DNA of 32,618 bases from Bryobacterales bacterium (GTDB taxonomy: Bacteria; Acidobacteriota; Terriglobia; Bryobacterales; UBA6623), in assembly GCA_022824585.1 (NCBI GenBank), contig JAJDZN010000216.1:1-32618 (forward strand), given 5' to 3'. Of the stretch, positions 1-27,267 are shown piece by piece. The position numbers were made by a program, and so were the translations under genes. Position 1 is the stretch's first letter, and each line of letters starts with the position of its first letter. The notes under the pieces were generated by a model. The model did no database searches and had not been told where the DNA came from. It worked only from the letters and a program-made list of their open reading frames with translations.

Positions 1-56
1 CGTCCGGACCCGCACGCCGATTGAGTGAAATCGCCGCCTGTTGAAACAAGATGTAG

Positions 57-89
57 TGACATACTGGATGTGTGCAAAATGTTATGTCA
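57..89. repeat. Short inverted repeat in AT-richer intergenic DNA
   Basis: TGACATA at 57-63 and TATGTCA at 83-89 form a perfect 7-bp inverted repeat with a 19-base spacer. The surrounding 1-177 stretch has no convincing gene and is less GC-rich than the coding DNA. It could be an operator for a gene beyond the left edge or chance; nothing in the sequence decides this. Confidence 0.25.
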
Positions 90-148
90 TTGGTGTGTCA
101 CGACTTATGTGTCCGCGAAAACTTAAAATGACGAACTCAGGTTAACGT

Positions 149-173
149 CGCTGACGCGGCGGTCCGATCAGCG
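149..173 (-). terminator. Weak hairpin downstream of the EEP gene
   Basis: CGCTGA (149-154) pairs with TCAGCG (168-173) around a 13-base loop, just beyond the stop codon of the minus-strand operon. There is no clear T-run after it on the minus strand, so termination here is only a possibility. Confidence 0.2.
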
Positions 174-177
174 GCTG

Positions 178-1029
178 TCAACTCTCGCCGTTGCCCTTCA
201 CCTCGATCAGCAGGCGGCAGTGATCGCTCGATCCCCACTGGTCGATCTCATTCATCGCGCGCACCGATACCTTCTCGTGAAATCCACGCGACGCGAACGC
301 GTAGTCCAACTGATTCACCGCAGCTTCCGGCCCGCCCCGGTGATAGTACGTCGGTACGTTCTTCGTGTCCGGCGGTACATCGTCTGGATCGGATTCCGCT
401 TCACGACCGTGCGGCAACTGCGGCCCCAGAAACTCCAGCCCAAGCGCCTGCATCCTATCCCACACCGTGCGCTCGCGATCCGGCAGCGACAACCTCCAAC
501 CGGTCGACCCGTAGAACATGTTCAGATCGCCCGCAGCCAAGATCCTGTGCTTCGCAGGGTCGGTGTGACCAATGAACGTGGACAAGTCCGAAATGATTCG
601 ATGTGCGGAGGCGTCCGAGTAGATCCAACTGCTGTTGGTAGACGGATGAACCGTCAGCCAGCTTGCGTACATCGAGACTGCCACAAATGACTCTTCCTCG
701 TTGCCGTGCGGGAGCACTCTCGCGGCGGCGATGGTACCGATTCCACTGACTCCGATCAAGTCCTCACCGAGTTCGCCGGTCGGAGGCACTTGTCGGTACG
801 GCTCGACGGTGACTCGGTCAGTCAGCTTCACGACCAGCGGCCAACGGTCGTACAGCTGCCGGTTCCAGAACACCCCGTCCATGTGACCGATCTGATCCAC
901 CAACTCTCCCGGCGGGCTTCCCGCTTCCTGCAACAGCGCCAAATCCGCGTCACCGTCACGAGCCATCTGCACCAGTTCGCGCCACGGCTCCAGCCGCCTG
1001 CCGATGTTCCAGCACACCAGCTTGATCAT
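178..1029 (-). CDS. Endonuclease/exonuclease/phosphatase (EEP) family hydrolase
   Basis: This 283-aa protein has the EEP (DNase I-like) fold signature: N8 in CWNIG near the start, the metal-binding E35 in LLQEA, GDLN at 167-170, QLDYAF at 240-245 and the terminal SSDH at 267-270. These enzymes hydrolyse phosphodiester or phosphomonoester bonds with a divalent metal; substrates range from DNA to inositol phosphates and lipids, and this sequence does not say which. The start at 1029 is preferred over an upstream in-frame one (1074) because its ATG overlaps the stop of the SIS gene as ATGA, the usual sign of translational coupling, and because the EEP fold begins right there. It is the last gene of a five-gene operon of sugar-phosphate enzymes, so a phosphatase or phosphodiesterase role on a pathway product is possible. 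No signal peptide is seen. Confidence 0.85.
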   Translation of the reverse strand: MIKLVCWNIGRRLEPWRELVQMARDGDADLALLQEAGSPPGELVDQIGHMDGVFWNRQLYDRWPLVVKLTDRVTVEPYRQVPPTGELGEDLIGVSGIGTIAAARVLPHGNEEESFVAVSMYASWLTVHPSTNSSWIYSDASAHRIISDLSTFIGHTDPAKHRILAAGDLNMFYGSTGWRLSLPDRERTVWDRMQALGLEFLGPQLPHGREAESDPDDVPPDTKNVPTYYHRGGPEAAVNQLDYAFASRGFHEKVSVRAMNEIDQWGSSDHCRLLIEVKGNGES

Positions 1030-1589
1030 CCGACCACTTGTCCGTCCATGAAGTGATAGCAGACCATGTGGCACACGACGAAGTGCGCGTCTTCCACGCG
1101 GCCCATGTGGTCGTCTGAGATGTGGACGCTGAGATCGACGCTGGGGCGCAGACGCCCGCCACTGAGGCCGCTCAGGCCCACGGTGTAGCAGCCGATCGAG
1201 TTTGCGTAGTTGATCGCCTGCACCACGTTCTCCGAGTTTCCGCTCCCGCTAATGGCCATGGCGATATCACCGGGCCGGGCGAAGTTCTTCAGGGGCTCCA
1301 CGAATACGCTCTCGTAGCCCACATCGTTCGAGTAGGCGGTCAAGGTCGGGACCTGTTCCGCCAGCGACATGATCTTGAAGCGCTTCTGCTGGCCGTAGCT
1401 CGCGCCCTTCACGATGTCGCAGGCGAAGTGGTTGGCGGTCGCAGCGCTGCCGCCATTGCCGAACACAAAGATCTGCCGATCCTCGTCGCGCGCCCTGCGG
1501 AACACATCGATCAGAGCCTCGACGCGATCCAGATCGACTGTCTCTAGAGCGGCCAACAACCGCTGCTTGTAGTCCCTAGCGAAGGCCAT
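1026..1589 (-). CDS. SIS-domain sugar-phosphate isomerase, GmhA-like
   Basis: At 187 aa this is the usual size of single SIS-domain isomerases of the GmhA (sedoheptulose-7-phosphate isomerase) type. The phosphate-binding loop FGNGGSAA is at 43-50, a second sugar-phosphate loop SGSGNSENV at 114-122, and the C-terminal helix VEDAHFVVCHM (165-175) carries acid and histidine residues placed like the catalytic ones of GmhA. The likely reaction is a ketose/aldose phosphate isomerisation in the cytoplasm. It begins three bases after the PfkB kinase stop and ends in an ATGA overlap with the EEP gene, so it is certainly in the same operon. The pairing with a PfkB kinase and a HAD phosphatase recalls ADP/GDP-heptose synthesis, but no nucleotidyltransferase is present here, so the true substrate is uncertain. 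Confidence 0.85.
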   Translation of the reverse strand: MAFARDYKQRLLAALETVDLDRVEALIDVFRRARDEDRQIFVFGNGGSAATANHFACDIVKGASYGQQKRFKIMSLAEQVPTLTAYSNDVGYESVFVEPLKNFARPGDIAMAISGSGNSENVVQAINYANSIGCYTVGLSGLSGGRLRPSVDLSVHISDDHMGRVEDAHFVVCHMVCYHFMDGQVVG

Positions 1590-1592
1590 CGC

Positions 1593-2588
1593 TCACATGC
1601 CCTGCCCCGCGGTCGCGGCCAAGGCGAGCACCTCGTCGGGAGTCGCCCTGCCCGTGCCTAGTTTGCCGACCGTAACGCCGGCTACGATTATCCCAAACCG
1701 CAGTGCCGCTTCAGTCTCCGCACCCGCCGCTAACGCGAGCGCGAACCCTGCGGAAAGACTGTCCCCCGCTCCGCACGGATCCACTGCCTTTGCAGCTTCC
1801 GGCACCGGGAGCAAACGCTTCCCGTCCCTGTCGAAGAGCCACGCTCCCCGCTCGGCCGCCGTGACCACAAGCGCCGGCCCTCCGATCGTCCGGCGCAGCC
1901 GCTCGAAGTCGACCACTCCGAATTGCCTCTGGCAGGCGGCCGCAGCCTCCGACTCGTTCGGCGTGACAACGACGTCGCGAAAGTGCTCTACGCGCCGGCG
2001 AGAATCGGCTACGAAGACGGCACGGCCGGCCACGGACGCACTCCGACAAACGGCCTCCCGGATCGCACGCGTGACAGTCCCGCCGTGATCGGTCTCCGCT
2101 TGATCGGCCACGATCACAGCGTTGAAATCGTCCAAGCACTCCTCCATCCTCGCAACGATTGCCTGCTCGGCATGAGGGCACAGCGGCGCTGTGTTGACGA
2201 AATCGACCCGGGGAAGATCCTCGATGCCTGTCTCGCAGTTGATCAGCTTGGTGTAGGTAAAGGTTTGCAGGTCTGCGGACTCGACCAGTAGCTCATGCTC
2301 GATTGAGGCCCTCGCCAGCGCACGGCGCAAGTCCAGCCCGGCGCCATCCGCTCCGACGGCTCCGAGGACGCTGACCCGGCCGGCGCCCAAGGCTGCCAAG
2401 TTGCCGGCCACCGTGCCTCCTGCCCCTGGCGTCGACGTGGTCTCCCGGACCGCGCACCGCGGGATTCCGGTCTCGCGCGAGGGCTCCCCCAACTCTGGGT
2501 CGTACTTGCACCATCGATCGAGGCAGATATCGCCGATCACCAGCGCTCGGACGCTCGACGCACGTGCCAGGATTTCGGAACAAGTCAT
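1593..2588 (-). CDS. PfkB-family carbohydrate kinase, HldA/RfaE-like
   Basis: This 331-aa protein is a ribokinase-fold sugar or sugar-phosphate kinase. It opens with VIGDICLDRW (17-26), which resembles the VGDVMLDRY start of heptose-7-phosphate kinases (HldE/RfaE N-domain). The glycine-rich sugar-binding stretch PGAGGTVAGNLAALGA is at 54-69, TPNESEA at 209-215, and the ATP-site anion hole with catalytic base GAGDS at 273-277 (D276). The start at 2588 is chosen because this ATG overlaps the previous gene's TGA as ATGA and lies right before the domain; a frame open to 2660 would add 24 residues without domain character. There is no fused nucleotidyltransferase domain as in HldE. It acts with the neighbouring SIS isomerase, which starts three bases after its stop; the phosphoryl acceptor is inferred to be the isomerase product. 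Confidence 0.86.
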   Translation of the reverse strand: MTCSEILARASSVRALVIGDICLDRWCKYDPELGEPSRETGIPRCAVRETTSTPGAGGTVAGNLAALGAGRVSVLGAVGADGAGLDLRRALARASIEHELLVESADLQTFTYTKLINCETGIEDLPRVDFVNTAPLCPHAEQAIVARMEECLDDFNAVIVADQAETDHGGTVTRAIREAVCRSASVAGRAVFVADSRRRVEHFRDVVVTPNESEAAAACQRQFGVVDFERLRRTIGGPALVVTAAERGAWLFDRDGKRLLPVPEAAKAVDPCGAGDSLSAGFALALAAGAETEAALRFGIIVAGVTVGKLGTGRATPDEVLALAATAGQGM

Positions 2589-3571
2589 TCCGTGCGGCTG
2601 TCGGCCGCCGCCAAGACTGCCTTGCGAAGCGCCGGAACCGTGACGCGATGGTCTCCGCAAACGTAGAGGCTTTGGCCGCCATCTGCGACCGTCCGCACGA
2701 GAATCGTCTTGTGCGGGCGGAAGTAGTAGCCGGGGTCGGACTTGGGCAGCTCCGTGTGGACGTCGCCCTGGATCGGCACCAAGTCGAAGACCGCGGTCAT
2801 GAAGTTGGCGATTCGGCGGCCTTCTTGGTGTGCCACGTTGCGGGCCATCGCCAGCGCCTTGAGATAGACCTCGGGGCCCATGATCGCCGACCCGAGGCTA
2901 ACCATGATGCCGCCTTCCAGGCTCTCAACCGCCTTGGTGTATACGAGAAAGTCCCGGTAGCTGGCCTGCCCGTAGGCCGCGCCGTCGCAGTTGGGATGCT
3001 CGTGGGTGATGTCGTAGCCGACGCCCACGTGGACGGTGACCGGGATGTCCAATTCGTAGGCGTTGGCGAGGATGCTTACGTCGCGATGCGGGAGTTCCTC
3101 GGCCACAATGCGGCGCCCGAAGTTCTCTCCCAAGCCCAAGCCCAGCCGAGCCGCGTCCACCGCCCAATCGTTCAGGATCGAGGTCTCGTCCCAGAGCCCG
3201 AACTCCCCGGTGCGGATGTAGCGCGCGACGCTCTCGGTGGTGGCGCCGATGCGCGCCAGCTCAAAATCATGAATGGCACCGGCGCCATTCATGGCCACGT
3301 GCGTGAACGCTCCGCGCCGCAGCAGGTCGATCACCTGTCGCGAGACGCCGGACTTGATCACGTGCGCGCCCATCATCAAGATCCGCGCACTGCGGTCGCC
3401 GGCAACGAGCCTTGGCGCAACGACTTCGAGGGATTCCCGCAACCGCTGGTCAGCCTCCTCAACTTGCTGGTCAAGCTCCAGCAGATAACCGAGATCCATG
3501 TCGTGCGCGCGCTCGGCCAGCGGGCGGATGTTCAGACGCGAACGGTCAAAGGCCGGGAATTTCGATTGCAT
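2585..3571 (-). CDS. Deoxyhypusine-synthase-like protein of unknown role
   Basis: This 328-aa protein shows the deoxyhypusine-synthase fold by pattern: GAHVIKSGVSRQVIDLL (68-84) followed by VAMNGAGAIHDFELA (92-106) matches the NAD-binding block of DHS, VSILANAYELDIPVTVHVG (165-183) its tunnel region, and GGIMVSLGSAIMGPEVYLKAL (220-240) the block holding the catalytic lysine in true DHS. Here the lysine position appears to be glycine (G232), with K238 a few residues later, so normal spermidine transfer to eIF5A is unlikely; bacteria generally lack eIF5A anyway. It sits between a HAD phosphatase and a sugar kinase, overlapping the latter by ATGA, so it more likely acts on a sugar or cyclitol phosphate, perhaps through NAD. 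That role is inference. The family assignment is by eye and needs a profile search. Confidence 0.62.
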   Translation of the reverse strand: MQSKFPAFDRSRLNIRPLAERAHDMDLGYLLELDQQVEEADQRLRESLEVVAPRLVAGDRSARILMMGAHVIKSGVSRQVIDLLRRGAFTHVAMNGAGAIHDFELARIGATTESVARYIRTGEFGLWDETSILNDWAVDAARLGLGLGENFGRRIVAEELPHRDVSILANAYELDIPVTVHVGVGYDITHEHPNCDGAAYGQASYRDFLVYTKAVESLEGGIMVSLGSAIMGPEVYLKALAMARNVAHQEGRRIANFMTAVFDLVPIQGDVHTELPKSDPGYYFRPHKTILVRTVADGGQSLYVCGDHRVTVPALRKAVLAAADSRTE

Positions 3572-3609
3572 GTTGAAGAGCCACGGAGGCGGAACTTCGG
3601 GCAGTCCGG

Positions 3610-4494
3610 TCAGGAAGCGCCGAACATGGCCGCCATAAGTTCATTGTGCGCATTGAAGTTGGGCACGATCCAATCAGCGCCGACAGCAGCAAGCCGGTCG
3701 CGCTTGACCTTGTCCACGGCCACGCAGTCGGGCTCATCGGTGGCGACACCCACCGCGCTGCCACCAACTGTCTTGACGACCTCGATCTCCACGAAGCCAT
3801 CGCCGAAGCCCAGGAACTCGGATCCCTCGTAATCGCTTTCGCTGATGATGCGCTCCACCAAGATCTTCTTCGAGAAGTTCTTGTAGTCGTCCAACGCTCC
3901 GTGCATTCCGCCGGCAAAGTACGAGTCGATGCGCAACAGGCGCGCCTCTTCCTGCATGTACGGCTGGTCAGTACCGCTTGCCAAGTACAGCCTCAACCCG
4001 CGCTCCAGCATGGCATCCAGCAGGCGGCGCGCACCGGGCACCATCAATTCGTCAGGATCGACGCGCCCAGACCGCAAGTCCTCGCGACGATGGCGGATCT
4101 TGTCCATCAACAGGTCCAAGTAGACGTGCTTGTATTCCAGCGGATCCTTGGGCGTCCCGCCCCGCTTGGCAATCTGCTCGGCGAACTCGATCATCTGGTA
4201 AATCGTCTGCCGCCCGGTCAGGTGGCCGACATACCCCTCGACCAGCTCCGTAAGCTCCTGCTCCGACTCGCCAGTGCGCAGATCGAGCAGCGTCTCGACC
4301 ATCATCGGCACCATGACGTCGAACCATCCCGCGCGGATCAGGGATAGCGTCCCGTCGAAGTCGAAGAGCCCGACCCTGGCACCGGCCGCGCTCGACGCCG
4401 GGTCGAGGATCTCAAGGGGTGTGCAAGCCAAGCTCCAGTGTGGCAAATCCCGGTTGGAGGTACTGCAAGTCGGCTCCCCTCGGCCTCGCTGCAT
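3610..4494 (-). CDS. HAD-superfamily phosphatase
   Basis: The four HAD motifs are visible (numbering from the start used here, 294 aa): I, LFDFDGTLS with D45 nucleophile and D47 acid/base; II, ASGT at 172-175; III, lysines in KNFSKK (205-210); IV, GFGDGFVEIE (229-238). A helical cap of roughly 90 residues lies between motifs I and II, as in phosphatases acting on small sugar phosphates. It leads the operon, 38 bases before the DHS-like gene. The start is uncertain: the frame stays open to 4689, but residues upstream of about 4494 look non-domain-like. ATG 4494 has a GGGG stretch 6-10 bases before it; a TTG near 4431 would give a shorter protein beginning about 20 residues before motif I. A GmhB-like role with the SIS and PfkB partners is a guess. 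Confidence 0.78.
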   Translation of the reverse strand: MQRGRGEPTCSTSNRDLPHWSLACTPLEILDPASSAAGARVGLFDFDGTLSLIRAGWFDVMVPMMVETLLDLRTGESEQELTELVEGYVGHLTGRQTIYQMIEFAEQIAKRGGTPKDPLEYKHVYLDLLMDKIRHRREDLRSGRVDPDELMVPGARRLLDAMLERGLRLYLASGTDQPYMQEEARLLRIDSYFAGGMHGALDDYKNFSKKILVERIISESDYEGSEFLGFGDGFVEIEVVKTVGGSAVGVATDEPDCVAVDKVKRDRLAAVGADWIVPNFNAHNELMAAMFGAS

Positions 4495-4708
4495 CTGGGA
4501 CACCCCGTTGGCGTGCCACGGGCAGGCTGGACCCACGGCTCGAATCGGCCGCCTCCGCCCCGCCGACAGATGCACGCCCGCGGCGGCCAAGTACCAACGC
4601 AGCGGTTTGCTACACTGCCAGCGGCCTGCGGGGTGCGGGATTCGCGTCGGACGAGACCTCTCGCACACACGCCCAGGCCGCTCCAACAACGGCTAGCAGC
4701 CCCGTGGC

Positions 4709-4738
4709 TTGACGCTCTCGGCTGGGCATGGCTAGCAT
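4709..4738 (+). promoter_or_regulatory. Candidate sigma-70 promoter of the Gfo/Idh/MocA gene
   Basis: TTGACG (4709-4714, five of six to consensus) is followed after 18 bases by TAGCAT (4733-4738, four of six). It lies 25 bases before the start codon, and a ribosome-binding AGAGGA sits at 4748-4753. It is in the divergent gap facing the HAD operon. Confidence 0.45.
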
Positions 4739-4762
4739 TACGGAATCAGAGGAAATCCACTC

Positions 4763-5926
4763 ATGGCAAAAGAACTGCGCATCGGAATGATCGGCTACGG
4801 CTTCATGGGCCGCGCCCACTCGAACGCCTACAAGCGTCTCAACGACTTCTTCCCAGTCGAGCACCGACCGGTGCTGCAGGCAGTCGCAGCCCGCAATCGG
4901 GATAACGCGCAATCATTCGCCGACAACTGGGGCTACCAGCGGATCGAGACCGACTGGCGCAAGGTGGCCACCGCCGATGACGTGGACTTGGTGGACGTCT
5001 GTGCCCCCAATCACCTGCACCTGGACATCGTCCTCGCAGCCGCCGAAGCGGGCAAGATGATCTGCTGCGAGAAGCCGTTGGCGATGTCCGTCGCCGAAGC
5101 CGAGCAGATGGTCGAAGCCGTCGAGAAGCACGGCGTGCCCAACATGGTCTGGTACAACTACCGGCGCGTGCCCTCGATTTCGCTGGCCAAGCAGATCGTT
5201 GACGAGGGTCGCATCGGCAAGCCGTTTCACTACCGCGCCACGTACTTGCAGGACTGGACCATTTCCGAGGACGTCCCCCAAGGGGGCGCTGGAACGTGGC
5301 GCCTAGATGTGGACGTGGCCGGCTCCGGCGTCACCGGCGACCTGCTCGCCCACTCCATCGACTCGGCGATGTGGCTAAACGGTCCCATCGCCCGGGTCGT
5401 CGCCAGCACGCGCACGTTTGTCACCGAGCGCATGCATGCCGATACTGGCGATGTGCAGCCCGTCGGTATCGACGACGCCTGCATGTTCCTAGCCGAGTTC
5501 GCAAACGGGTCGATGGGCACGTTCGAATCCACGCGCTATGCCCGCGGCCGCAAGAACTACAACACGCTCGAGCTCAACGGGGCGGACGGGTCGGTGTTCT
5601 TCGACTTGGAGGACCCAGAATACCTGCACTTCTTCGAGTACCAGCAAAAGCAGTCGGGGAAAAAGGTCGAGGATCACCTCACGGGCTGGCGCAAGATCCA
5701 CGTGACGAATTCGGAGCACCCCTACATGGACAAGTACTGGGTGCCCGGGACAACGATCGGATACGAACACACCTTCCTCAATGCTCTTGCGGACTTCGTC
5801 GCAGGCGTCGAGTCCGGCAACCACACCCAGCCCGATTTCAAGTGCGCGCTCCAGACGCAAAGGGTGTGCGACGCAGTGATCGAGTCCGGCCGCACTCGAG
5901 AATGGGTTGAGACCGGAGCAGAGTAG
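4763..5926 (+). CDS. Gfo/Idh/MocA-family NAD(P)-dependent oxidoreductase
   Basis: This 387-aa protein has the complete family layout: a Rossmann domain with IGYGFMG (10-16, GxGxxG), the hallmark CEKPLAMS (102-109) whose lysine is at the active site, and a C-terminal alpha/beta domain with GDLLAHSIDSAMWL (192-205) holding the usual D/H catalytic pair. Such enzymes oxidise or reduce sugars, inositols and related polyols in the cytoplasm; the substrate cannot be read here. The start is supported by AGAGGA nine bases upstream. It diverges from the HAD/DHS-like/PfkB/SIS/EEP operon, so the two may share a regulatory region and a sugar pathway. It ends 23 bases from the end of the convergent M24 peptidase gene. 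Confidence 0.92.
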   Translation: MAKELRIGMIGYGFMGRAHSNAYKRLNDFFPVEHRPVLQAVAARNRDNAQSFADNWGYQRIETDWRKVATADDVDLVDVCAPNHLHLDIVLAAAEAGKMICCEKPLAMSVAEAEQMVEAVEKHGVPNMVWYNYRRVPSISLAKQIVDEGRIGKPFHYRATYLQDWTISEDVPQGGAGTWRLDVDVAGSGVTGDLLAHSIDSAMWLNGPIARVVASTRTFVTERMHADTGDVQPVGIDDACMFLAEFANGSMGTFESTRYARGRKNYNTLELNGADGSVFFDLEDPEYLHFFEYQQKQSGKKVEDHLTGWRKIHVTNSEHPYMDKYWVPGTTIGYEHTFLNALADFVAGVESGNHTQPDFKCALQTQRVCDAVIESGRTREWVETGAE

Positions 5927-5949
5927 CTCCGGATAGCCCTCCCCGTCGC

Positions 5950-7119
5950 TCAGATCCGCACGATTTCGGCCTGGACCGCGCCGGTGGCCACCGCGCTATC
6001 CGCCTGAACGAAGCAGTCGATCTCGCTGCGGACGCCGAACTCGGGCAGGTACACCCCCGGCTCGATCGAAAAGCACGTGTCCGGGATCACTGGGCGCTCG
6101 TCGCGCATCTCCAGGTTGTCCATGTTGGCACCGTTGCCATGGACCTCTTCACCGATGGAATGGCCGAGGCGGTGGACGAAGGCGTCGCCGTAGCCGCTGG
6201 CGGCGATATGGTCCCGAGCGACCTTGTCAATCTCCCAGCCCCGGATCGCCTTTCCCTCGCGCATCGCCGCATCAGCGGTGCGCAGGGCCAGATCGCGAGC
6301 GCCGGTGACGACCTCGAAGACCCTTTGCATGTGCTCGGAGGGGCGTTCGCCGCAGAAGCCTGTCCACGTGATGTCGTAATACACGGCTCCGGGGGCATCC
6401 AGCTTGGCCCACAGGTCGATGAGGACAAAGTCCCCGGTCCGAATGGGCCGCGAGCGTTCCGGATCCGGTCCGTAGTGCGGATCGCCGCTGTTGGAGTTGA
6501 CAGCGACGATGGGGCCGTCAACCGTCACCATGCCAGATTCCCGGAAGCGCCGAACGATGAACTGTGCGATGCGGTACTCGCCGCTGGCTCCGTCCGCGTC
6601 GATGTCGTGGCGGATCTGCTGAAACGCCTCCTTGAGGATCGAGTCGACGCGACGGCCGGCCTCGAAGTGGGAGTCTCTCTGGGCCTCGCTCCAGCGCGCC
6701 TCGAAATACTGCACGAGCGCAGCTGACGACACGACCTCGGCGCCGAAGGAGCGCACCAAGTCGACGGTGCCCGCATCCACCAGCGAGACGACCGGAATCA
6801 TGCACTGCGGCGAAAATTGCATGGCGACGCTGGCCTTGCCCGCCAAGATCGCTCCGAGGTGCTCATGATGCGACTGCCAACTGGAGTAGACGAGCTTGGA
6901 ACCGGGCAAGCTGTCGAGCCGGGCATCTTCGATCGCGTGCACGAGTTTGGCCGGCTCTCCGGTCGCGGGGATCCAGTAGTACCAGCGACGCGAGACATGC
7001 CCGCCGGAATCTAGCCCCAGCACGCGATAGGCGATGGGGTCGCGCACGTGGTGGTCGAACAGCAGCCAGCCGTCAAGCCCTTGGGCGGACAGCTGAGCCT
7101 GGATCTCGGAAACCTGCAT
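5950..7119 (-). CDS. M24-family metallopeptidase (Xaa-Pro aminopeptidase-like)
   Basis: With the start at 7119 this is a 389-aa two-domain protein: an N-terminal creatinase-like domain (about 1-150) and a pita-bread catalytic domain (about 160-389). All five metal ligands of the family are present: D235 in LIDLWAK, D249 in YYDITWTG, H320 in HRLGHSIG, E353 in SIEPGVY and E366 in RSEIDC. It probably cleaves the bond before proline in peptides, with a dinuclear metal centre, though creatinase-like or dipeptidase substrates are possible. The start at 7119 is preferred to 7182 because the extra 21 residues would run into the lexA promoter region and do not resemble the fold. No signal peptide is visible, so it is likely cytoplasmic. 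Confidence 0.9.
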   Translation of the reverse strand: MQVSEIQAQLSAQGLDGWLLFDHHVRDPIAYRVLGLDSGGHVSRRWYYWIPATGEPAKLVHAIEDARLDSLPGSKLVYSSWQSHHEHLGAILAGKASVAMQFSPQCMIPVVSLVDAGTVDLVRSFGAEVVSSAALVQYFEARWSEAQRDSHFEAGRRVDSILKEAFQQIRHDIDADGASGEYRIAQFIVRRFRESGMVTVDGPIVAVNSNSGDPHYGPDPERSRPIRTGDFVLIDLWAKLDAPGAVYYDITWTGFCGERPSEHMQRVFEVVTGARDLALRTADAAMREGKAIRGWEIDKVARDHIAASGYGDAFVHRLGHSIGEEVHGNGANMDNLEMRDERPVIPDTCFSIEPGVYLPEFGVRSEIDCFVQADSAVATGAVQAEIVRI

Positions 7120-8013: not shown

Positions 8014-10907
<2,894 letters not shown>

Positions 10908-18986: not shown

Positions 18987-21740
18987 TTACCAGAACAGCT
19001 TCAGCTGGAACCGAAACGTCCTTCCGTCATTGAGCGTGTTGTTGATCTGCCCAAAGCTGGGAGAGGTCAGTGTCTTGCCCGGCTCCGCGAATTGCGGAGT
19101 GTTGAAGAAATTGATCGACTCGGCCCGAAATTCCATCGAATTGTCCGATCCCAGCGCGAAGCGCCGGGAGAGCGACGCATTGACATTGGCAATCTTGCCC
19201 TTACGAAAGGTGTTGCGGCCGAGGTCGCCCGCCTGCTCGAGCGGGGCGTCGACGAAGCGGAACGCGCTGGCGGGGAGCAGTTCTTCAGAAGTGTCCGGCG
19301 AGCCGATGATGCGTCCCAGCGCGGTCGGATCCAGCAGCACGGGCCGGTCACCGGTGCGCCCGTCGACATTGCCGATGCCGGGGCCGTCCGACCCCGACTC
19401 GATGGTAAAGGGCGTGCCCGACTTGAGCAGCGAGACAGTGGAGATCATCCACCCCCCCAAGACCTTCCCAGCCCAGCCCCCGAGAGCTTTCCGCGGCACC
19501 GTGTAACCAGCCTGCAGGAGGAAGGCGTGCGGCTGGTCGAAGTCACTGAGGGCCTTGAGATCGCGGTGCGAATCGAACTCGGTCTGAGAAACCGCCACCC
19601 GCGCGTCCGGCCCGGAAGCAGTGTTGGTGTAGGAACCGCCAAGATCGAGGGACTTGCTCAGCCAATACGAGGAGTTGAGCGTAAAGCCCCGCCAATTCGG
19701 GGTCGTGAGCGTGACCCTGCCCGCATCAAAGTAGGCGCGCGAGCCGTTGTGGATGAACAGGTGCTCGTAGATGCTCTGGTCAGCGCGCCGATCATTCAGA
19801 TTGGCGACGGTAGACAGCATGCCCGGCACCTCGCGGCCGCGATTGAGGAAGTAGGTGATGATCAGCTTGTGGGCGCGGCTGCCGACATAGCCCAGCTGCA
19901 GCCTCCAGTCCGAGCCAAGCCGCCGCTCCCAGCTGAAGTTGTATTGGTGGGAGTACGGCACAGTCAGGTCCGGCCCAGGCTCGATCTTGCTCGAGCGGGC
20001 GCCCGGCTGCCGCTTGGAGTGGTCGAGCAGCGAACGATACGTGGCGAGGTCGGGCCGGAGGATCACCGATGTGACGGTGTGCGGCGGGTTGAGCCGATCC
20101 TGCCCATAAGTTACCGGGAAGATGTCGCCGTAGTGCGTGCCGTAGGCGGCACGAATCACGCCTGCCTCGCCCGGCAGTCGGTAGGCGAATCCGAATGTGC
20201 CGGCGAGATTGTTCAGATCCGAGCCCATGGCCAGCTCGCTCCGACCGGTCACGTCGATCGGGCGCGTGAACGGCTGGTAGCGCAGCCCCAGATAGAACGT
20301 GAGTCGGTCGCTGGCCTGCCAGCGGTCGCCGAGGAAGAAACTGTTGTGCCAGTTGCGGAAGCCGCGATACGTGGATCCGAGCGAAGCGATCAACCGACTC
20401 GGCAGCCCGAAGCGCACGTTGGTGATGGCATCATTGCCGAAATTGGGGCGGAATACCAAGATGCCCCGCGCTCCGTCAGGCTCCTCGCCGTTGTACTGCA
20501 GTCGCGTCAGCGCGAATCCGGCGGTGATCTCGTGCTTGCCACGGGTGTGCCGCAGAGTGGCGGCTTGGCGGAATCGATTCTGGGCACGATCCAGCGGGAT
20601 GATCGGGAACGGCCCGAGATTGGTTAGCGCGCGGCCAATCATGATCGGGCCCAGCGCCCCCTCGGCCGGGAGCAGCAGCGACCCGAGGCGATCCAGCCCC
20701 GACGAAAGCTCCAAGATCGTGGAAGGCGTGAAGGAGCGGCTCCAAGTGATGCGCGCGGCATGCGACTTGGTGTCCGTATCGGGATTCTGTCCAACCACAA
20801 GCTGGAAGGCATCGACATTTTGCGCGGTCCACGCGTAGCGCAGCGCCAGATTGCCGCCAAGCGGCCCCGCACGATCGAGTTGGATCCGGGCCGCATCCGT
20901 ATTGATGCTCTGCAAGCTGTTTGTGTTCAGTGCGCGGTCAGCGATGTCCGGACGGTTCGGCGCATCTTTGGGATACGCTCCGAGAATCCGCTCAACTGCA
21001 GCGCGGGTGGCAGGGTCGCGAGCCAGCGGCGTGCGCTCCTCGGGCAGCGGCACCAGCACGTTGCCGTTGACGTTGCCGCGAATCTTGTTCTGCGAGGCGC
21101 CCAGGGTAAGCGCTCCGAGCGGGCCGGCGTGGGCGCTTAGATTGAGGCCGTAGAAGTTCTCGCGGGCTGGCTTGACCGGGCCGACTTGGAAGAACGAGCG
21201 GGCCGAGAAGACGCTGTTGTTGTGGCGCCAGAACGCATCGCCGTGAAACCCGGACCCCCGCGCGGGCCCGGCATGCACCGGAGGGGTGGGCGGCTTGCCG
21301 TACTCGGAGCCGAAATACCCGCGATCCACGGCGAACTCCGAGACGATCGTGGCGGTCGTGCCTAGGCGGATGTTGAGCTCCTTCAGCGCGTTGTTATCCA
21401 CCAAATTGAACTGGACGTTCTCGTTACGCCGGCTCTCTCCTGCCTCGGAGGAGGTCTCCCCGAGCAGGTTCATGTCGGTGCGGTCCGACCCGGTGAGCGG
21501 CTCAGTCTCGCCTGCCTCGCCCTCCGGCTCGGTCGCGGCGGGTTCGGGAACCTGCTCCGCCGGCTCGCCAGCCGCCGCCGGCAGTGGGAGGGCGATCGTC
21601 GCAACGACCACGACGGCCCAAAGGCAACTCTGCCTCGACGAAGACACCGCGGAATCCCATGCTACCAGCGCACGCCACAGGCGGCTGAGCAGAGTGGGCG
21701 GACCGCACCTGCGCGGTCCGCGCCGCGGGACTACGTTCAC
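18987..21740 (-). CDS. Oar-like TonB-dependent receptor-type outer-membrane barrel
   Basis: This 917-aa protein has a signal peptide (hydrophobic VVVVATIALPLPAAAG, ending near residue 58), a Pro/Glu-rich linker, the segment NLLGETSSEAGESRRNENVQFNLVDNNALKELNIRLG, then a large beta-barrel rich in aromatic strands, ending in FRFQLKLFW with the terminal aromatic needed for outer-membrane insertion. It lacks the usual N-terminal carboxypeptidase-regulatory-like domain and a recognisable full plug. It probably binds or imports a substrate. GTG 21740 overlaps the upstream gene's TGA as GTGA, but a GTG at 21647 would give a cleaner signal peptide. It is about half identical, by eye, to the divergent protein at 24547-27267. 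Confidence 0.85.
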   Translation of the reverse strand: MNVVPRRGPRRCGPPTLLSRLWRALVAWDSAVSSSRQSCLWAVVVVATIALPLPAAAGEPAEQVPEPAATEPEGEAGETEPLTGSDRTDMNLLGETSSEAGESRRNENVQFNLVDNNALKELNIRLGTTATIVSEFAVDRGYFGSEYGKPPTPPVHAGPARGSGFHGDAFWRHNNSVFSARSFFQVGPVKPARENFYGLNLSAHAGPLGALTLGASQNKIRGNVNGNVLVPLPEERTPLARDPATRAAVERILGAYPKDAPNRPDIADRALNTNSLQSINTDAARIQLDRAGPLGGNLALRYAWTAQNVDAFQLVVGQNPDTDTKSHAARITWSRSFTPSTILELSSGLDRLGSLLLPAEGALGPIMIGRALTNLGPFPIIPLDRAQNRFRQAATLRHTRGKHEITAGFALTRLQYNGEEPDGARGILVFRPNFGNDAITNVRFGLPSRLIASLGSTYRGFRNWHNSFFLGDRWQASDRLTFYLGLRYQPFTRPIDVTGRSELAMGSDLNNLAGTFGFAYRLPGEAGVIRAAYGTHYGDIFPVTYGQDRLNPPHTVTSVILRPDLATYRSLLDHSKRQPGARSSKIEPGPDLTVPYSHQYNFSWERRLGSDWRLQLGYVGSRAHKLIITYFLNRGREVPGMLSTVANLNDRRADQSIYEHLFIHNGSRAYFDAGRVTLTTPNWRGFTLNSSYWLSKSLDLGGSYTNTASGPDARVAVSQTEFDSHRDLKALSDFDQPHAFLLQAGYTVPRKALGGWAGKVLGGWMISTVSLLKSGTPFTIESGSDGPGIGNVDGRTGDRPVLLDPTALGRIIGSPDTSEELLPASAFRFVDAPLEQAGDLGRNTFRKGKIANVNASLSRRFALGSDNSMEFRAESINFFNTPQFAEPGKTLTSPSFGQINNTLNDGRTFRFQLKLFW

Positions 21741-24346
21741 CGAGCGGCTTCCTCTGCCCTCTGGACAAAGATCGCCCGAGCTTCCTCAAATTGCGCCAGC
21801 ACGTGCTCGCGCTCGCGCTCCGAACGCCACCCCGGATGGGCGCCGGCCTGCCGCGCTATGTCATCGATCCATCGAACGAAGTACTCTGCATCGTTACGGG
21901 AGCGGATCTGCTGATCGCCGCAGTACACGTAGATCGGCCCGGTCTCGGCATACAAACGGCTGTCGTCAACGGGCAGCACCGGGCCCGAGGTCGATGCCCG
22001 CAACGTGTACCACCCGCTTTTCTCGACTCGGATCCGTTTGCGCAGACTGCCTGAGAGGCCACCGTCATCCAGCGGGATCTGCTCCACCACGTTGCCTTTG
22101 CGGATCAACTCGAGCCTGTCGGCGGGAAAAGCGGAATCCATGCGCGCGACCACCTCAACGCTCCCGCCTTCGGCCGGCAGCAGGATCTCGCCGCCCGGAA
22201 TCTGCCCGTCGACGGCCAGCTGGAGCAGAGGGCCGTTCGTCACGAAGGTGCGCCCCGCTCGGACCGCCGCGACCCAGCGACCCCACTCGAGCCTGTCGCC
22301 CAGGTAGGCGTACATGCGGGCCGCTCCGATGATGGGCGTGCGGTGGAGGTCCGTGATCGAGTCTTCCCCTCCCGACGCCGTAACCTTGAAGCCGCAATTC
22401 AGGGCCCGGTGCCAGACGGCAGCCGTGTGTTCGGCGTGCCGCGCGCTGGTCATCACCTCGAGATATGCAAAGCTGCCAAGGGCCAAATCGACGGGAAAGC
22501 CGCGGGCCGCCGCGTAGCCTCTCGATTCGGGATCGGACGAGAAGGGATGCACGTAGCCGCCCAGCGCACCCTGGTTCCGAGCCAAGCGGAAGATATCGGT
22601 GTTGCTCGGATACAGGCTCTCGATGGCAGTGCCTTCGTAGCCGGTGGTGTAGGGGGAGAGCAGGTGCTCGGTGAGGTTGATGAAATTGATGTGCCCATAG
22701 AACGGCGGCCGGTACTCTTGTCCCCAAGACAAGATCTGTCCAGCCGTCGAGCGCAGCTCGTCGAAAGGCCCCCGGTAGGAGTGGTGGTCGAAGATGCGGT
22801 TGTCCTTGTTGGCGATCTTCTCGCCGACCACGTCCAGATCCTCGGCCGCGGCCATGAAGAGGAGGTTCTCCGGAGTGTTGCGCAGGTTGCCGCCGTAGTT
22901 CATGTGCACGTGGTCGCTGCCGCTGTACCATCCCAGCGCGCCGAAGTCCGTGAATTGCTCGAGATCGATCATCACCGAGGCCACGGCTCCTGATTCGATC
23001 TGAGCGGTCAGCTGCACCGGATAGCGCTCGAAACCCTTCATGGCCAGCAGGGACACCTCGCCCACCGGCAGCTTCAGCGAGAACTCGCCGGTGGTGTGAA
23101 AGGCATCCAAGTCCAGAGCGCGTGCCGCGACCCTGTGGAAGGCGTCGGCGGGCGCATACGCCTTGCCGTCGGACGCGCGCAATTGGATTCTGGCCTCCGT
23201 CAACTGGCCGGACTCCGCTTCCCTGACCCGGACACGAAGCGTGCCCATCGGTCGGCGGTACACCCGCCTGCGGATCTCGACCGGCCGATCCTCGCCGCCG
23301 AACGTCTGCAGCAACCGCAGCTCTGAGAGTCCTGCGCGATTCGAGACGTAGACGATCCAGTCGCCATCCGGCGACCAGCGAGGATCAAACCGATCCCAGT
23401 CACCGAACGTCAGCTGGTAGGGCTCACCGCCCTTGACCGGAAGCACATAGAGATTGCTGTATTGGCTGCCGCGGTGGGAACTGTAGAGGATGCGCGCGCC
23501 GTCCGGCGACCACTGGGGGCGAGTGCGGTAAAGGGTCTCTTCGCGCAGTATGCGCGTCGCGCTGGACATCGCATCGGGTTGTATCGGTGCGCGCCACAAA
23601 GCCCCCGAGCCGAGCGGGATGCCTCGATTGGACACGAGGATCATCGCGCTGCCATTCGGGGAAATCGTCGGTTGGATGTGCAGGTCATGAGACCCGAAGT
23701 ACAGCCGCTCGTTGGCGTAGTCGTGGTTCTCGGTCAGCCTGAGCGGCTGGCCCGGAACGCCGTTCTCGATCGGCATGGAGTAGAGGTGGTACCAGCCGTC
23801 CGGCGCGGTCGACACGTACAGCAACGCCGAGCCATCCGGGGTCCACACAGGGTCGAGATTGAGGTCGTCGCCTCGCGTGAGCCACGCACTCTCCCCCGTG
23901 CGCGTGTCCAGCAAGCGCAAGTTCACGCTTCGGTAGCCTTCGTCTGCGGTGTACGCGATCCAGTGCCCGTCAGGAGACCATGCGGGAGTCGAATCGTAGG
24001 TCGAGTTGGCCGTGAGCTCGTAGGCGTCGCCGCCGTCGACACGGACCTTCCAGATCGACCCGGACATCGAGAACGCAATCCACTCGCCGTCTGGCGAAAA
24101 GCACGGCCGCCAAGGCGTGCTCGCAACAGGTGGCAAGTAGTAGTTGTGCATGTAGTTGCCGCCGGTGAGGGCCGCCGGGTACGCCTGCTGCAGTGTTGGC
24201 GGTTCGGTCCCGAGCCCCGCCTCTCGCGCCGTGTCCGGGCGAAGCGGAGCCTGGCCGAATCCAAGCGTGGCCATTCCGCCCTCGATCGCTAGGAGAGCCG
24301 CGAGGGTCAGCGGCGGTAAGAGTGTTTGACGCAACGTTGCGGGCAT
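21737..24346 (-). CDS. TolB-like propeller fused to CehA/McbA-type metallohydrolase
   Basis: This 869-aa exported protein has a signal peptide (LLPPLTLAALLAIEGG), then six PD40/WD40-like blades, each with an SPDG-type turn (FSPDGEWIAFS, WSPDGHWIAYT, WTPDGSALLYV, ISPNGSAMILV, WSPDGARILYS, WSPDGDWIVYV), a middle beta domain, and a C-terminal hydrolase domain of the CehA/McbA (PHP-like) type. Its metal-site candidates are HVHMN after GWYSGSD, YVHPFSSDP and TASGGEDS. CehA/McbA are known for hydrolysing carbamates, but the family is broad. ATG 24346 is chosen for the AAGGGA shortly upstream and the clean signal; the open frame extends to 24403. It is coupled to the barrel gene by GTGA, suggesting the pair handles one substrate at the cell envelope. 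Confidence 0.85.
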   Translation of the reverse strand: MPATLRQTLLPPLTLAALLAIEGGMATLGFGQAPLRPDTAREAGLGTEPPTLQQAYPAALTGGNYMHNYYLPPVASTPWRPCFSPDGEWIAFSMSGSIWKVRVDGGDAYELTANSTYDSTPAWSPDGHWIAYTADEGYRSVNLRLLDTRTGESAWLTRGDDLNLDPVWTPDGSALLYVSTAPDGWYHLYSMPIENGVPGQPLRLTENHDYANERLYFGSHDLHIQPTISPNGSAMILVSNRGIPLGSGALWRAPIQPDAMSSATRILREETLYRTRPQWSPDGARILYSSHRGSQYSNLYVLPVKGGEPYQLTFGDWDRFDPRWSPDGDWIVYVSNRAGLSELRLLQTFGGEDRPVEIRRRVYRRPMGTLRVRVREAESGQLTEARIQLRASDGKAYAPADAFHRVAARALDLDAFHTTGEFSLKLPVGEVSLLAMKGFERYPVQLTAQIESGAVASVMIDLEQFTDFGALGWYSGSDHVHMNYGGNLRNTPENLLFMAAAEDLDVVGEKIANKDNRIFDHHSYRGPFDELRSTAGQILSWGQEYRPPFYGHINFINLTEHLLSPYTTGYEGTAIESLYPSNTDIFRLARNQGALGGYVHPFSSDPESRGYAAARGFPVDLALGSFAYLEVMTSARHAEHTAAVWHRALNCGFKVTASGGEDSITDLHRTPIIGAARMYAYLGDRLEWGRWVAAVRAGRTFVTNGPLLQLAVDGQIPGGEILLPAEGGSVEVVARMDSAFPADRLELIRKGNVVEQIPLDDGGLSGSLRKRIRVEKSGWYTLRASTSGPVLPVDDSRLYAETGPIYVYCGDQQIRSRNDAEYFVRWIDDIARQAGAHPGWRSEREREHVLAQFEEARAIFVQRAEEAAR

Positions 24347-24546
24347 CTCGTCCCTTAGTTTCTCGCATGTCCCGGGCTGGTCGAAGCCAAAGTTGGCGGA
24401 CACCGCGACGATGTGTCCCCCCGAGATACCAATGCGTGGGCCCGCAGCCCGGATACCTTCGCGATCTCGGATACGTCATTGAAGAGTAGACATCAAAGGC
24501 GCTCCCGGCGAGTTCGACTGCGGGCGCGAGGAGCTATCCCGATTCC
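24347..24546. other. Divergent control region of the two barrel units
   Basis: This 200-base gap separates the minus-strand hydrolase/barrel pair from the plus-strand barrel. A ribosome-binding GAGGAG is at 24528-24533 for the plus gene. No clear promoter pair was found on either strand. Confidence 0.4.
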
Positions 24547-27267
24547 ATGGCCCGCATTGGATTGAAGCGCTGCTTAGGTACGGCACTCGCTGTTGCATGC
24601 ATTACTGCTTGGCCGGTGGCGAGGGCCGCAGGTCAAGACCCGGCGAATTCGGCCGAGGAGGCGCCGAATCCGGCTGCCGAGCCAGAGCAAGACAGCACGG
24701 AGCAGGCCCCAGATGAAGCCGCCGATTCCTCGGACGGCGGGGCCGCTGCCCAGCGCACTAACCTGAACTTGCTCGGCCAGGAGGACACAAGCTCCGGCGA
24801 AGCGCGCCGCAACGAGAACGTTCAGTTCAACTTGGTCGACACGAACACCCTGCAGGAGCTCAACATCCGCCTGGGCGCGACCGCCACGATCGTCACGGAC
24901 TTCCAGCCAGGCCGCGATTACTACGGTGCCGAATACGGCCGGCGCCCGCGCCCGGGCCTGCACCTGCCGCCTGCGCGCGGGCAGGCAGTCCACGGCAATG
25001 TCTTTTGGACCCACGGCAACAGCGCGTTTTCGGCCCGCTCGTTCTTCCAAGTCGGGGATGTCCAGCCTGCGAACGAGAACCGCTACGGATTCCGCGTCGG
25101 CCTCCCGGCATGGAAGGGGGCGCGCCTGACGATCAACGGTTCCCAGCAAAAGATCCGGGGGCAGGTCAACGGCAACGTCCTCGTGCCGCTGCCTAGGGAA
25201 CGCACGCCCCTGCTCATCGACCCGTCCAGCGGGGAACGCACCGACGATGCCACTCGCGAGATCGTCCAACAGCTGCTAGGGGCCTACCCGACCGAACTGC
25301 CCAACCGGACCGACATCGCACCCCGGGCGCTCAACACGAACGCGCCCCAGCGAGTCGACACCGACTCGGCCAACCTGCGCCTCGACCAAGGCCTGGCCGA
25401 CCACGGAAAGCTCGGCTTCAGCTATGTCTTCACATCCCAAAGCGTGGATGCGTTTCAGTTCGTGCGCGGCGCGAACCCAGACACCGAGATCAAGAACCAT
25501 CGTCCCCGCGTGACGTGGACGAAGGATTGGTCAGCTCGGACCGTGACAGACTTTTCGATCGGATTTGATCGAATCGGCTCGCTGCTGATCCCCGAACCGA
25601 ACAACTTCGGGCCGACGGTGGGTGTCGGCAGGGCGATCGACGGGCAGGGCCCTTCGCCGCTGATCCCCGTGGACCGGGCGCTGAACACGTTCCGGGGCGC
25701 CGGGCAGGTCGCGCGGGAGACCGGCAGACACAGCCTCAAGGCCGGGTTCCACCTCGGCCGCATCCAGCTCAACGGCGTGGAGCAGCAGGCCATTCGCGGC
25801 AACACCCAGTTCTCGGACAACTTCGGCAACGACGCGATCACCAACTTCCGACTGGGCAAGCCCACCCGCTTGCTCAAGACCGTTGGCAGCTTCCATCGCG
25901 GTTTCCGCCAGTGGGTCAGCCAGTTCTACGTAGCGGACACATGGAAGCCCCTGCCCGACCTGACCCTAAGCCTCGGCCTGCGCTACGAACTCGTTACCAC
26001 GCCTCAGGAGGTGAACGAGTTCGAGACCCTGCCCTACGGCTGCGACTGCAACAACTTCGCGCCGCGTTTCGGCTTCGCCTATCGACTTGGCGACCGCATG
26101 GGCACCTTGCGCGGAGCTTACGGCCTCTCCTACGGCGAGATTTACCCCGTCACCTACAGCCAGTACCGCATCAACGCCCCCAATGTCGTGCGTCTCGTGG
26201 TGTTGCGGCCAGAGCTGGTGGACATCATCAGCGGAGCGGCCTTTGCCAACGTGACGCCGGGATCCCGGTCGACGCTGTTCGACATCGCGGACAACTTGGT
26301 CGAACCCTACAGCCACCAGTACAGCCTGAGCTGGGAGTTCGGGCTGTCCCGGACCATGAACCTGCAGCTGGGCTATGTCGGCAGCCGGACTCACAAGGTG
26401 TTCCAAGCCTGGTTTCTCAATCGCGGGGAACGCCCGCCGGAAGTGCCGGTCACGGTGCGCACCACCAACGTCCGGCGGCCAGACTCCCGCTACAACGACG
26501 TGTTGCGACTGCACAACGCCTCGCGGGCATATTTCGACGCGGCCCGGGCGGCCTTCGTGATGCGGAACCTGAAGGGATTCACGATCGACGCCGCGTACTG
26601 GTTCAGCAAGTCGATCGACCTGGGCAGCGACTATACCAACACGATGAACGGCGGCGACGCCCGCAGGGCGGTCAGCCAGACTGCGAACAACATCCATTCA
26701 GACGTGAAGTCGCTGAGTTTCTTCGACCAGCCGCACGCCCTTCTACTGCGCGCCGTGTACAAGTCCCCGGCCGGCCGGAGCTGGGCCGGCCGCATGTTCG
26801 GCAACTGGGAGGTATCGACCGTGACGCTGCTCAAGACGGGCACGCCATTCACGGTCCAGACCGGATCCGACGGCCCGGGCTTCGGAAACGTCGATGGCGC
26901 GATGGGCGACCGCCCGCACCTGCTCGACCAGTCGCTGCTGGGCCAAATCGTTGGCGATCCCGACACTTCGCGGCAGATCCTCTCCCTAGACAAGTTTGCA
27001 TACCAATCCGTCGGGGACTTGGCCGGCGATCTGGGACTGCGCACATTCCGCAAGGGCAAGATCGCTAACGTCAACGCCAGCCTCTCGCGCAGCTGGACCG
27101 TCAGCGGGGAGAACCGCCTCACGTTGAGGGCCGAGTCGCTCAACTTCTTCAACACCCCTCAATTCGCCGACCCCACCACCAGCATGACGTCGCCCAGCTT
27201 CGGGCGCATCACCAACACGCTCAACGACGGGCGCACCTTCCGCTTTACGCTGCAGCTCGATTTCTGA
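24547..27267 (+). CDS. Oar-like TonB-dependent receptor-type outer-membrane barrel, paralogue
   Basis: This 906-aa protein has a signal peptide (KRCLGTALAVACITAWPVARAAG), an acidic linker, the shared NLLGQEDTSSGEARRNENVQFNLVDTNTLQELNIRLG segment, and a large barrel ending in FRFTLQLDF. Long stretches correspond to the protein at 18987-21740, including DRTDIAPRALNTN-type turns, YSHQYSLSWE, LQLGYVGSRTHK, WFSKSIDLGSDYTNT, TLLKTGTPFTVQTGSDGPGFGNVDG and RKGKIANVNASLSR. Like its paralogue it has no carboxypeptidase-regulatory domain and only a short plug-like part. It is divergent from the hydrolase gene, so the two barrels flank it as a mirror-image set. Substrate unknown. Confidence 0.87.
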   Translation: MARIGLKRCLGTALAVACITAWPVARAAGQDPANSAEEAPNPAAEPEQDSTEQAPDEAADSSDGGAAAQRTNLNLLGQEDTSSGEARRNENVQFNLVDTNTLQELNIRLGATATIVTDFQPGRDYYGAEYGRRPRPGLHLPPARGQAVHGNVFWTHGNSAFSARSFFQVGDVQPANENRYGFRVGLPAWKGARLTINGSQQKIRGQVNGNVLVPLPRERTPLLIDPSSGERTDDATREIVQQLLGAYPTELPNRTDIAPRALNTNAPQRVDTDSANLRLDQGLADHGKLGFSYVFTSQSVDAFQFVRGANPDTEIKNHRPRVTWTKDWSARTVTDFSIGFDRIGSLLIPEPNNFGPTVGVGRAIDGQGPSPLIPVDRALNTFRGAGQVARETGRHSLKAGFHLGRIQLNGVEQQAIRGNTQFSDNFGNDAITNFRLGKPTRLLKTVGSFHRGFRQWVSQFYVADTWKPLPDLTLSLGLRYELVTTPQEVNEFETLPYGCDCNNFAPRFGFAYRLGDRMGTLRGAYGLSYGEIYPVTYSQYRINAPNVVRLVVLRPELVDIISGAAFANVTPGSRSTLFDIADNLVEPYSHQYSLSWEFGLSRTMNLQLGYVGSRTHKVFQAWFLNRGERPPEVPVTVRTTNVRRPDSRYNDVLRLHNASRAYFDAARAAFVMRNLKGFTIDAAYWFSKSIDLGSDYTNTMNGGDARRAVSQTANNIHSDVKSLSFFDQPHALLLRAVYKSPAGRSWAGRMFGNWEVSTVTLLKTGTPFTVQTGSDGPGFGNVDGAMGDRPHLLDQSLLGQIVGDPDTSRQILSLDKFAYQSVGDLAGDLGLRTFRKGKIANVNASLSRSWTVSGENRLTLRAESLNFFNTPQFADPTTSMTSPSFGRITNTLNDGRTFRFTLQLDF

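Follow-up and report, generated by a model that had tools for sequence, protein, structure and literature searches.

A deoxyhypusine-synthase-like protein of the GSU2086 family in a candidate heptose-like sugar-phosphate operon of a Bryobacterales bacterium

The operon and its recurrence in other genomes

A 32,618-nt stretch of DNA from a Bryobacterales bacterium (contig JAJDZN010000216.1 of assembly GCA_022824585.1; the whole stretch is called the window here) begins where its contig begins, with a set of reverse-strand genes in which a deoxyhypusine-synthase-like protein (DHSL) sits among enzymes of sugar-phosphate type. The first gene of the set encodes a HAD-superfamily phosphatase (3610..4494, -), and is followed by the gene for DHSL, a member of the GSU2086 family (2585..3571, -), a HldA-like PfkB-family kinase of a subfamily of its own (1593..2588, -), a GmhA-like SIS-domain sugar-phosphate isomerase (1026..1589, -) and an EEP-family hydrolase (178..1029, -), the last gene seen in the transcription unit, beyond which the sequence ends. 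A Gfo/Idh/MocA oxidoreductase (4763..5926, +) is transcribed divergently. A sequence-only reading had placed these genes from motifs, and profile searches confirmed positions and families alike: a Pfam scan of the window returned Exo_endo_phos, SIS_2, PfkB, Hydrolase/HAD and GFO_IDH_MocA, with 35.4 bits for the phosphatase (Hydrolase) and 29.5 bits for the EEP protein (PF03372).

Reading the bases directly, we found ATGA overlaps at the DHSL/PfkB (2588-2585) and SIS/EEP (1029-1026) junctions and a three-base gap between the kinase and isomerase genes, all as previously described, together with a 38-base gap between the phosphatase and DHSL genes. The intergenic region at 4495..4762, bounded by gene starts at 4494 (-) and 4763 (+), is the probable promoter region of both the operon and the oxidoreductase. 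It holds a single, weak sigma-70-like match (9/12; 4709-4738, + strand). Across positions 1-6200 the promoter scan gave three sigma-70-like sites, all on the + strand, versus 0.9 (standard deviation 1.0) in shuffled sequence, and zero promoter-like sites on the operon strand (-); one terminator-like site was seen versus 3.5 expected.

A profile scan of a genome collection yielded at least 581 confirmed DHSL-family relatives. The counts given below for named loci refer to the best 80 of these and the sample therefore leans to close relatives of the window DHSL; they are raw counts, DHSL is present in all 80 by construction of the search, and neighbouring gene families were read from scanned representatives of sequence clusters. 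A HAD, PfkB-type kinase or SIS gene lies near DHSL in 61/80 loci, with a HAD gene immediately upstream in 41 and a PfkB-type kinase nearby in 55. Among the 64 loci with no less than 1.0 kb of sequence ahead of DHSL and 1.2 kb behind it, 51 had one partner or more. Examples of the order HAD-DHSL-PfkB come from Acidobacteriota, Planctomycetota, Armatimonadota, Chloroflexota, Bacillota, Acetothermia and Aminicenantes, and the nine loci fetched from the window's genus and family have DHSL, PfkB and SIS in every case and HAD in seven. DHSL loci carry the labels of 12 phylum-level groups, with heptose-type or module enzymes alongside in ten. Several partners are also joined in single open frames, whose start codons are unassigned: SIS with HAD (L110, L124, L139) and, once each, HAD with DHSL (L194), PfkB with HAD (L192) and DHSL with a HldE-type nucleotidyltransferase, a kinase coming next (L182). 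Since the same order is kept in distant phyla and natural fusions occur, we conclude that the HAD, DHSL, PfkB and SIS genes act together.

The earlier claim that all five genes do so is supported for these four and not for the EEP gene, which is found in 0/80 named loci, so that the HAD-DHSL-PfkB order is conserved across distant phyla and the five-gene set is not. Among five fetched loci of the genus, EEP was present in one, the near-identical L023. We therefore rejected EEP as a fifth pathway enzyme despite its ATGA overlap with SIS. The Gfo/Idh/MocA gene, whose divergent position at 4763 was as first reported, is the divergent neighbour in 4/5 fetched genus loci, and a Gfo gene recurs in 9/80 named loci. 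The window protein is 41-43% identical, over its length, to Gfo proteins encoded inside HAD-DHSL-PfkB operons (L113, L092, L108), and is a probable functional partner of the module. Its closest model is levoglucosan dehydrogenase, LevoglcsnDh (332 bits versus a cut-off of 650). Levoglucosan- and inositol-type catabolism resembles the present loci in that, in Chloroflexota and Bacillota, the module is preceded by AP_endonuc_2 and Gfo genes, and differs in that the scores fall below the family cut-offs; such routes are not known to include the HAD-DHSL-PfkB-SIS set.

A GSU2086-family protein with a predicted deoxyhypusine-synthase-type fold

DHSL passes the curated cut-off of the NCBIfam family GSU2086 (NF052581; 353 versus 250 bits, profile positions 2-300 of 301), and among the matches listed its closest named relatives come from Bryobacterales and other Acidobacteria bins. 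The Pfam deoxyhypusine synthase model, PF01916, did not match it up to E 10, nor did any other Pfam model; certain GSU2086-type relatives match PF01916 weakly, at 28-31 bits with neighbours in frame. With 64 relatives as input, AlphaFold2 gave a model with a mean pLDDT (predicted local distance difference test) of 95. Its top ten Foldseek matches in the PDB (E 2.9e-7 to 1.4e-6) were deoxyhypusine synthases, a LOR/SDH protein (3c2q) and AgrE/ArgZ (AgrE, 6lrh), the best being the deoxyhypusine synthase 7cmc (E 2.9e-7), with a template-modelling score of about 0.5 for deoxyhypusine synthases. Profile-profile comparison with seven deoxyhypusine synthases of the same phylum gave E 4.6e-6 and a probability of 87% for an 18-sequence family set (hhalign), and E 9.2e-5 and 59% for the window DHSL clade. 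This match spans the first two thirds of the protein, and the C-terminal alignment is weak. A stretch around NGAG..IHDFE is common to DHSL and ArgZ (E 1.5e-4). The likeness to deoxyhypusine synthase that had been noted is thus borne out by fold and profile-profile comparison, not by the Pfam model, and the protein itself belongs to the GSU2086 family.

Since the same genome encodes a separate and genuine deoxyhypusine synthase, which scores 301.5 bits against PF01916, DHSL is a distinct paralogue. It also lacks a hallmark of that enzyme, as the WG[KR] motif is present in 0/64 and 0/18 DHSL rows versus 7/7 deoxyhypusine synthase rows; we take the catalytic lysine of deoxyhypusine synthase to sit in this motif (SWGK). 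Across the 64 sequences of our alignment (A2; 64 of 81 group members at hand) 41 columns are invariant, many of them polar, including H70, H101, E104, E113, H181, D187, D207, E234, K238, R244, D263, R285 and K288. The last long helix (285-296 in the model) carries the invariant R285 and K288 and the nearly invariant R293, an arrangement that would suit an anion. This helix may correspond to the catalytic helix of deoxyhypusine synthase, in a part of the alignment that is unreliable; a residue-level mapping of the catalytic lysine onto DHSL was dropped for that reason, and a guess from the placement of helices and strands, that R293 takes its place, is not claimed. AgrE/ArgZ, through their C-terminal ornithine cyclodeaminase and LOR/SDH domain, share both the fold and the NGAG..IHDFE stretch with DHSL, which differs from them in being a standalone protein of about 325 residues encoded in sugar operons.

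The best-matching folds include enzymes that are NAD-bound according to their PDB titles (human deoxyhypusine synthase with NAD and spermidine, AgrE with ornithine and NAD+), and by analogy with them DHSL is probably the NAD-dependent enzyme of the module. GSU2086 carries a curated family name without an assigned function, and the sugar pathway around DHSL appears to be undescribed. The open-access literature, searched mostly through titles and the beginnings of abstracts, gave no paper containing both "deoxyhypusine" and "heptose" and no description of such a pathway, and one paper naming GSU2086 (PMC5585712).

Within the family, the window clade is 33-38% identical to the GSU2086-type clade. 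Members of the latter lie directly after a UvrA-like gene of about 930 residues in L031, L034, L036, L038 and other loci, and several of these UvrA-linked loci (L036 being the scanned representative) have a CAAX-protease-like gene, an IF-2B-like gene or both after DHSL. A third DHSL type, in the same order as the window and on a very long branch, was seen in four loci (L033, L039, L040 and L041, from genomes G022, G059, G029 and G028, respectively); its match to the profile falls into two parts, as if an insertion lay between them.

Partner enzymes and their surroundings

The isomerase scores below the gmhA equivalog cut-off (101.3 versus 209.45 bits), and its best PDB match is GmhA (5i01, E 7e-22). 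The zinc ligands of GmhA are given as H61, E65, Q175 and H183 in PMC5387315. At these positions the window isomerase has H-D-E-H versus H-E-Q-H, keeping both histidines and replacing E65 with D and Q175 with E. The D..E pair occurs in 36/36 isomerase rows beside a window-type DHSL (32 HDEH, 3 QDEH, 1 HDEQ; the set includes two genomes twice) and in two further plasmid-borne isomerases beside DHSL, versus 0/7 beside a GSU2086-type DHSL, where HEQH is found in 7/7. The swap is common to sugar-use and nucleotide-sugar surroundings. A GmhA-like gene of 155-201 bits, likewise below the gmhA cut-off, is present in 11 of 20 Acidobacteriota genomes that lack DHSL, the others having one match at 121 bits or, in eight, nothing above 30 bits; such a gene was found in 0/20 Acidobacteriota genomes that have DHSL, whose best isomerase scores 90-129 bits.

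The kinase similarly falls below the rfaE_dom_I cut-off (152.8 versus 345 bits), with HldA as its best PDB match (4e84, E 8e-16). Three kinase patterns were distinguished, comprising 51 window-like rows, 9 reversed HldE and 12 filed under normal HldE. Four of these 12 (L083, L110, L113, L129) are cut-off rows that belong with the window type. The window-like rows are without the normal HldE pattern (EAP, GGAAN, DY.K, DP) and have instead E in 51/51, T in 50/51 and G in 46/51; T59, Q163 and D195-S196-R197 are present in all 51. Presumably, the altered positions touch the sugar. A match of the kinase and isomerase to characterised enzymes of another pathway had been named as a possible refutation of a new pathway; with scores well short of the HldA and GmhA cut-offs and active-site patterns of their own, the two show no such match. 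The phosphatase gave no NCBIfam match and is not of the GmhB (HAD-IIIA/histidinol-phosphatase) type. Its AlphaFold2 model (pLDDT 91.5) is closest in the PDB to the alnumycin-P phosphatase AlnB, other C1-type HADs and beta-phosphoglucomutase (alignment A4, 40 of 43 members).

The operon contains no nucleotidyltransferase, as had been stated, but this does not extend to its sisters: such a domain is found in 12/80 named loci, and sister DHSL operons have it joined to the kinase or to a DHSL. In a Lachnospiraceae locus (L134), DHSL is accompanied by a GmhA-like SIS, a GmhB-like HAD, a reversed-domain HldE-like protein, radical-SAM-type proteins and a split transketolase; the heptose-type enzymes are recognisable there, all below the curated cut-offs. 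The Solidesulfovibrio plasmid pDCAR1 (L215) has a similar DHSL cluster whose neighbours are genes for pseudaminic acid, for a split transketolase and for several radical SAM proteins, and the cluster on this plasmid is a candidate surface-sugar island. HldE-like proteins with the nucleotidyltransferase first and the kinase, of altered pattern, second were seen in L134, L127, L128, L118, L122, L135, L140, L141 and L144. In a DHSL tree made by a quick method (156 rows, 135 different), the reversed-HldE context is split between two clades (support 100 and 98), and the normal HldE context lies in a planctomycete clade (support 94).

Elsewhere the module is found with genes of sugar use. On a Chloroflexota plasmid (CP069395), a GntR regulator gene precedes an operon encoding a sugar isomerase/epimerase, Gfo, DeoC (189 bits versus a cut-off of 117), a binding protein, an ABC ATPase, two permeases, a second Gfo, HAD, DHSL, kinase and SIS, the kinase and DHSL being annotated as hypothetical; here the module ends a putative sugar-uptake operon. 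Rbs-type importer genes adjoin the module in L139 and L119, where Pfam adds binding proteins, ROK kinases are found in 9/80 named loci, and scanned representatives have Gfo, AP_endonuc_2 and SDR genes around the module (L092, L108, L113, L120), with an altronate-dehydratase-type gene in L113.

A proposed heptose-like module and its alternatives

Given the partner types, the swap in the isomerase zinc site and the kinase's own pattern, we favour a sugar-phosphate pathway that is heptose-like but distinct. At a probability of roughly one half, HAD, DHSL, PfkB and SIS would work as a single module on a sugar phosphate (or a cyclitol-derived one), following the logic of heptose synthesis on a different substrate; the earlier suggestion of a new route to a modified sugar, or to its breakdown, fits. 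What is observed is which genes are present, how they are ordered and conserved, the predicted fold and the residue patterns; from these we infer NAD use, the four reactions, the epimerase-like chemistry and the direction of the pathway. The isomerase would interconvert a ketose phosphate and an aldose phosphate, the kinase would phosphorylate a second position and the phosphatase would take off a phosphate. We think a redox-neutral change of the sugar phosphate the most likely step for DHSL, which, with NAD+ held in its deoxyhypusine-synthase-type fold, would oxidise the substrate transiently, permit epimerisation or elimination and reduce it again. In this acidobacterium, as in Chloroflexota and Bacillota, the module and Gfo/Idh/MocA enzymes may serve uptake or breakdown of an unusual carbohydrate, and in other lineages the same type of DHSL may supply a nucleotide-sugar route by way of a kinase-nucleotidyltransferase. 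Synthesis of ADP-heptose fits this organism less well than breakdown or modification does.

Several observations weigh against this proposal. SIS is near DHSL in only 25/80 named loci, and 19/80 have none of HAD, PfkB or SIS nearby; of these 19, L146 and L148 have HldE farther off or on the opposite strand, and six are short of flanking sequence on one side. Unrelated neighbours in most genomes had been foreseen as grounds for refutation. Many GSU2086-type paralogues, judged from the scanned representatives, lie amid housekeeping genes, and no function was read from such neighbours except beside a GmhA-like SIS. In single-sequence searches, importer genes were near few loci (permease 4/80, binding protein 1/80), and neither importer nor DeoC genes were found in loci of the window's genus. 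Membership of the kinase and HAD groups was decided by score against profiles for which the window proteins were the seeds, so their uniformity is partly by construction.

One alternative is that the operon is the organism's ADP-heptose/lipopolysaccharide pathway, with diverged GmhA and HldA, a nucleotidyltransferase elsewhere and DHSL filling a missing step such as that of the C-6 epimerase HldD. The ADP-heptose pathway (GmhA, HldE, GmhB) has the same core types of SIS isomerase, PfkB kinase and HAD phosphatase, and sister DHSL operons also carry a nucleotidyltransferase. In all seven genomes searched, the operon has the sole GmhA-like isomerase above 30 bits and the sole strong HldA-like kinase (130-161 bits versus 67 or less for others), and one strong HldC-like nucleotidyltransferase is encoded elsewhere. 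HldD is above its cut-off in only 3/35 DHSL genomes, which makes its replacement by DHSL no more than a lead. The gene number of Geobacter GSU2086 falls between those of hldE and gmhA, and similar defects in transposon sequencing (Tn-Seq) during electrode growth are reported for all three (log2 -3.1, -3.2 and -3.7 for hldE, GSU2086 and gmhA; PMC5585712); these defects may include polar effects, which counts against our proposal as well. The Geobacter protein is of the same family as the window DHSL, a membership taken from the NCBIfam name and not from its sequence, and has the same partner types, whereas the window DHSL belongs to another clade and is paired with a different isomerase type. 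We nevertheless consider this explanation unlikely. The HldC-like transferase is present in 39/40 Acidobacteriota genomes regardless of DHSL (20/20 with, 19/20 without) and is thus not tied to the operon, so the 7/7 result was dropped as evidence for a missing step; in the window's own genome its neighbours are LigT-like and Mfd-like genes. Among DHSL genomes, 11/40, including Chloroflexota and Oscillospiraceae, have no HldC-like match at E 0.001. Finally, the isomerase metal-site pair and the kinase pattern are changed, both enzymes forming separate subfamilies, the phosphatase is of the C1 type with AlnB as its best fold rather than GmhB-like, and the operon has an extra protein, DHSL.

It is quite unlikely, in our judgement, that the module degrades an imported sugar through a deoxy-sugar phosphate, in which DHSL would be a dehydratase-type enzyme that depends on NAD and its product would be cleaved by a DeoC-like aldolase. 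The operon on CP069395, where DeoC, two Gfo proteins, an isomerase/epimerase and an importer accompany HAD-DHSL-PfkB-SIS, and the altronate-dehydratase-type gene in L113 point this way, but DeoC was found near just 1/80 named loci (L078, at a distance of about 5.5 kb) and near none in the window's genus, and a phosphatase is unusual for a breakdown pathway.

Deoxyhypusine synthase and AgrE both act on C-N bonds, and SIS and PfkB enzymes serve fructoselysine use. DHSL could accordingly have retained amine chemistry, its substrate being an amino sugar or a product of glycation; SIS would then be a deglycase and PfkB the kinase that goes with it, much as in the fructoselysine route, and the amine ligands of its deoxyhypusine synthase and AgrE relatives in PDB titles would agree. 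We regard this as improbable, since the kinase gives 152.8 bits to the heptose kinase model versus 32.2 to that of fructoselysine 6-kinase, WG[KR] is missing from DHSL and its last long helix would suit an anion. We hold it highly improbable that DHSL serves the kinase and isomerase as a scaffold or regulator without catalytic activity: it accompanies three kinase classes, as a scaffold also might, but its many invariant polar columns resemble an active site more than a surface.

Elsewhere in the window, an NAD-dependent DNA ligase of 892 residues (8223-10901, -) exceeds the usual length and has two HHH_2 stretches, with a possible inserted segment ahead of the second helix-hairpin-helix part. 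A PD40/DPPIV-like protein is encoded between two large OMP_b-brl_4 outer-membrane barrel proteins (18990-27264), and a gene resembling a DDE transposase (27722-29500, +) and a 3-dehydroquinase fused to shikimate dehydrogenase (30679-32232, +) were also seen.

Returning to the distinct heptose-like module, we suggest, tentatively and at somewhat under even odds, that the GSU2086 family is an undescribed branch of the deoxyhypusine synthase/ornithine cyclodeaminase fold that has moved from amine to sugar-phosphate chemistry, and that its members are the common, defining enzyme of a set of pathways, leading to heptose-type nucleotide sugars in some lineages and, in others such as this one, to a new form of carbohydrate use that has isomerase and kinase subfamilies of its own. 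If DHSL is a sugar-phosphate enzyme, this would be new chemistry for a fold known from hypusine and ornithine, and the four-protein set is small enough for one-tube reconstitution. It would also account for the common phenotype of Geobacter hldE, GSU2086 and gmhA, and would open an undescribed sugar pathway in soil bacteria.

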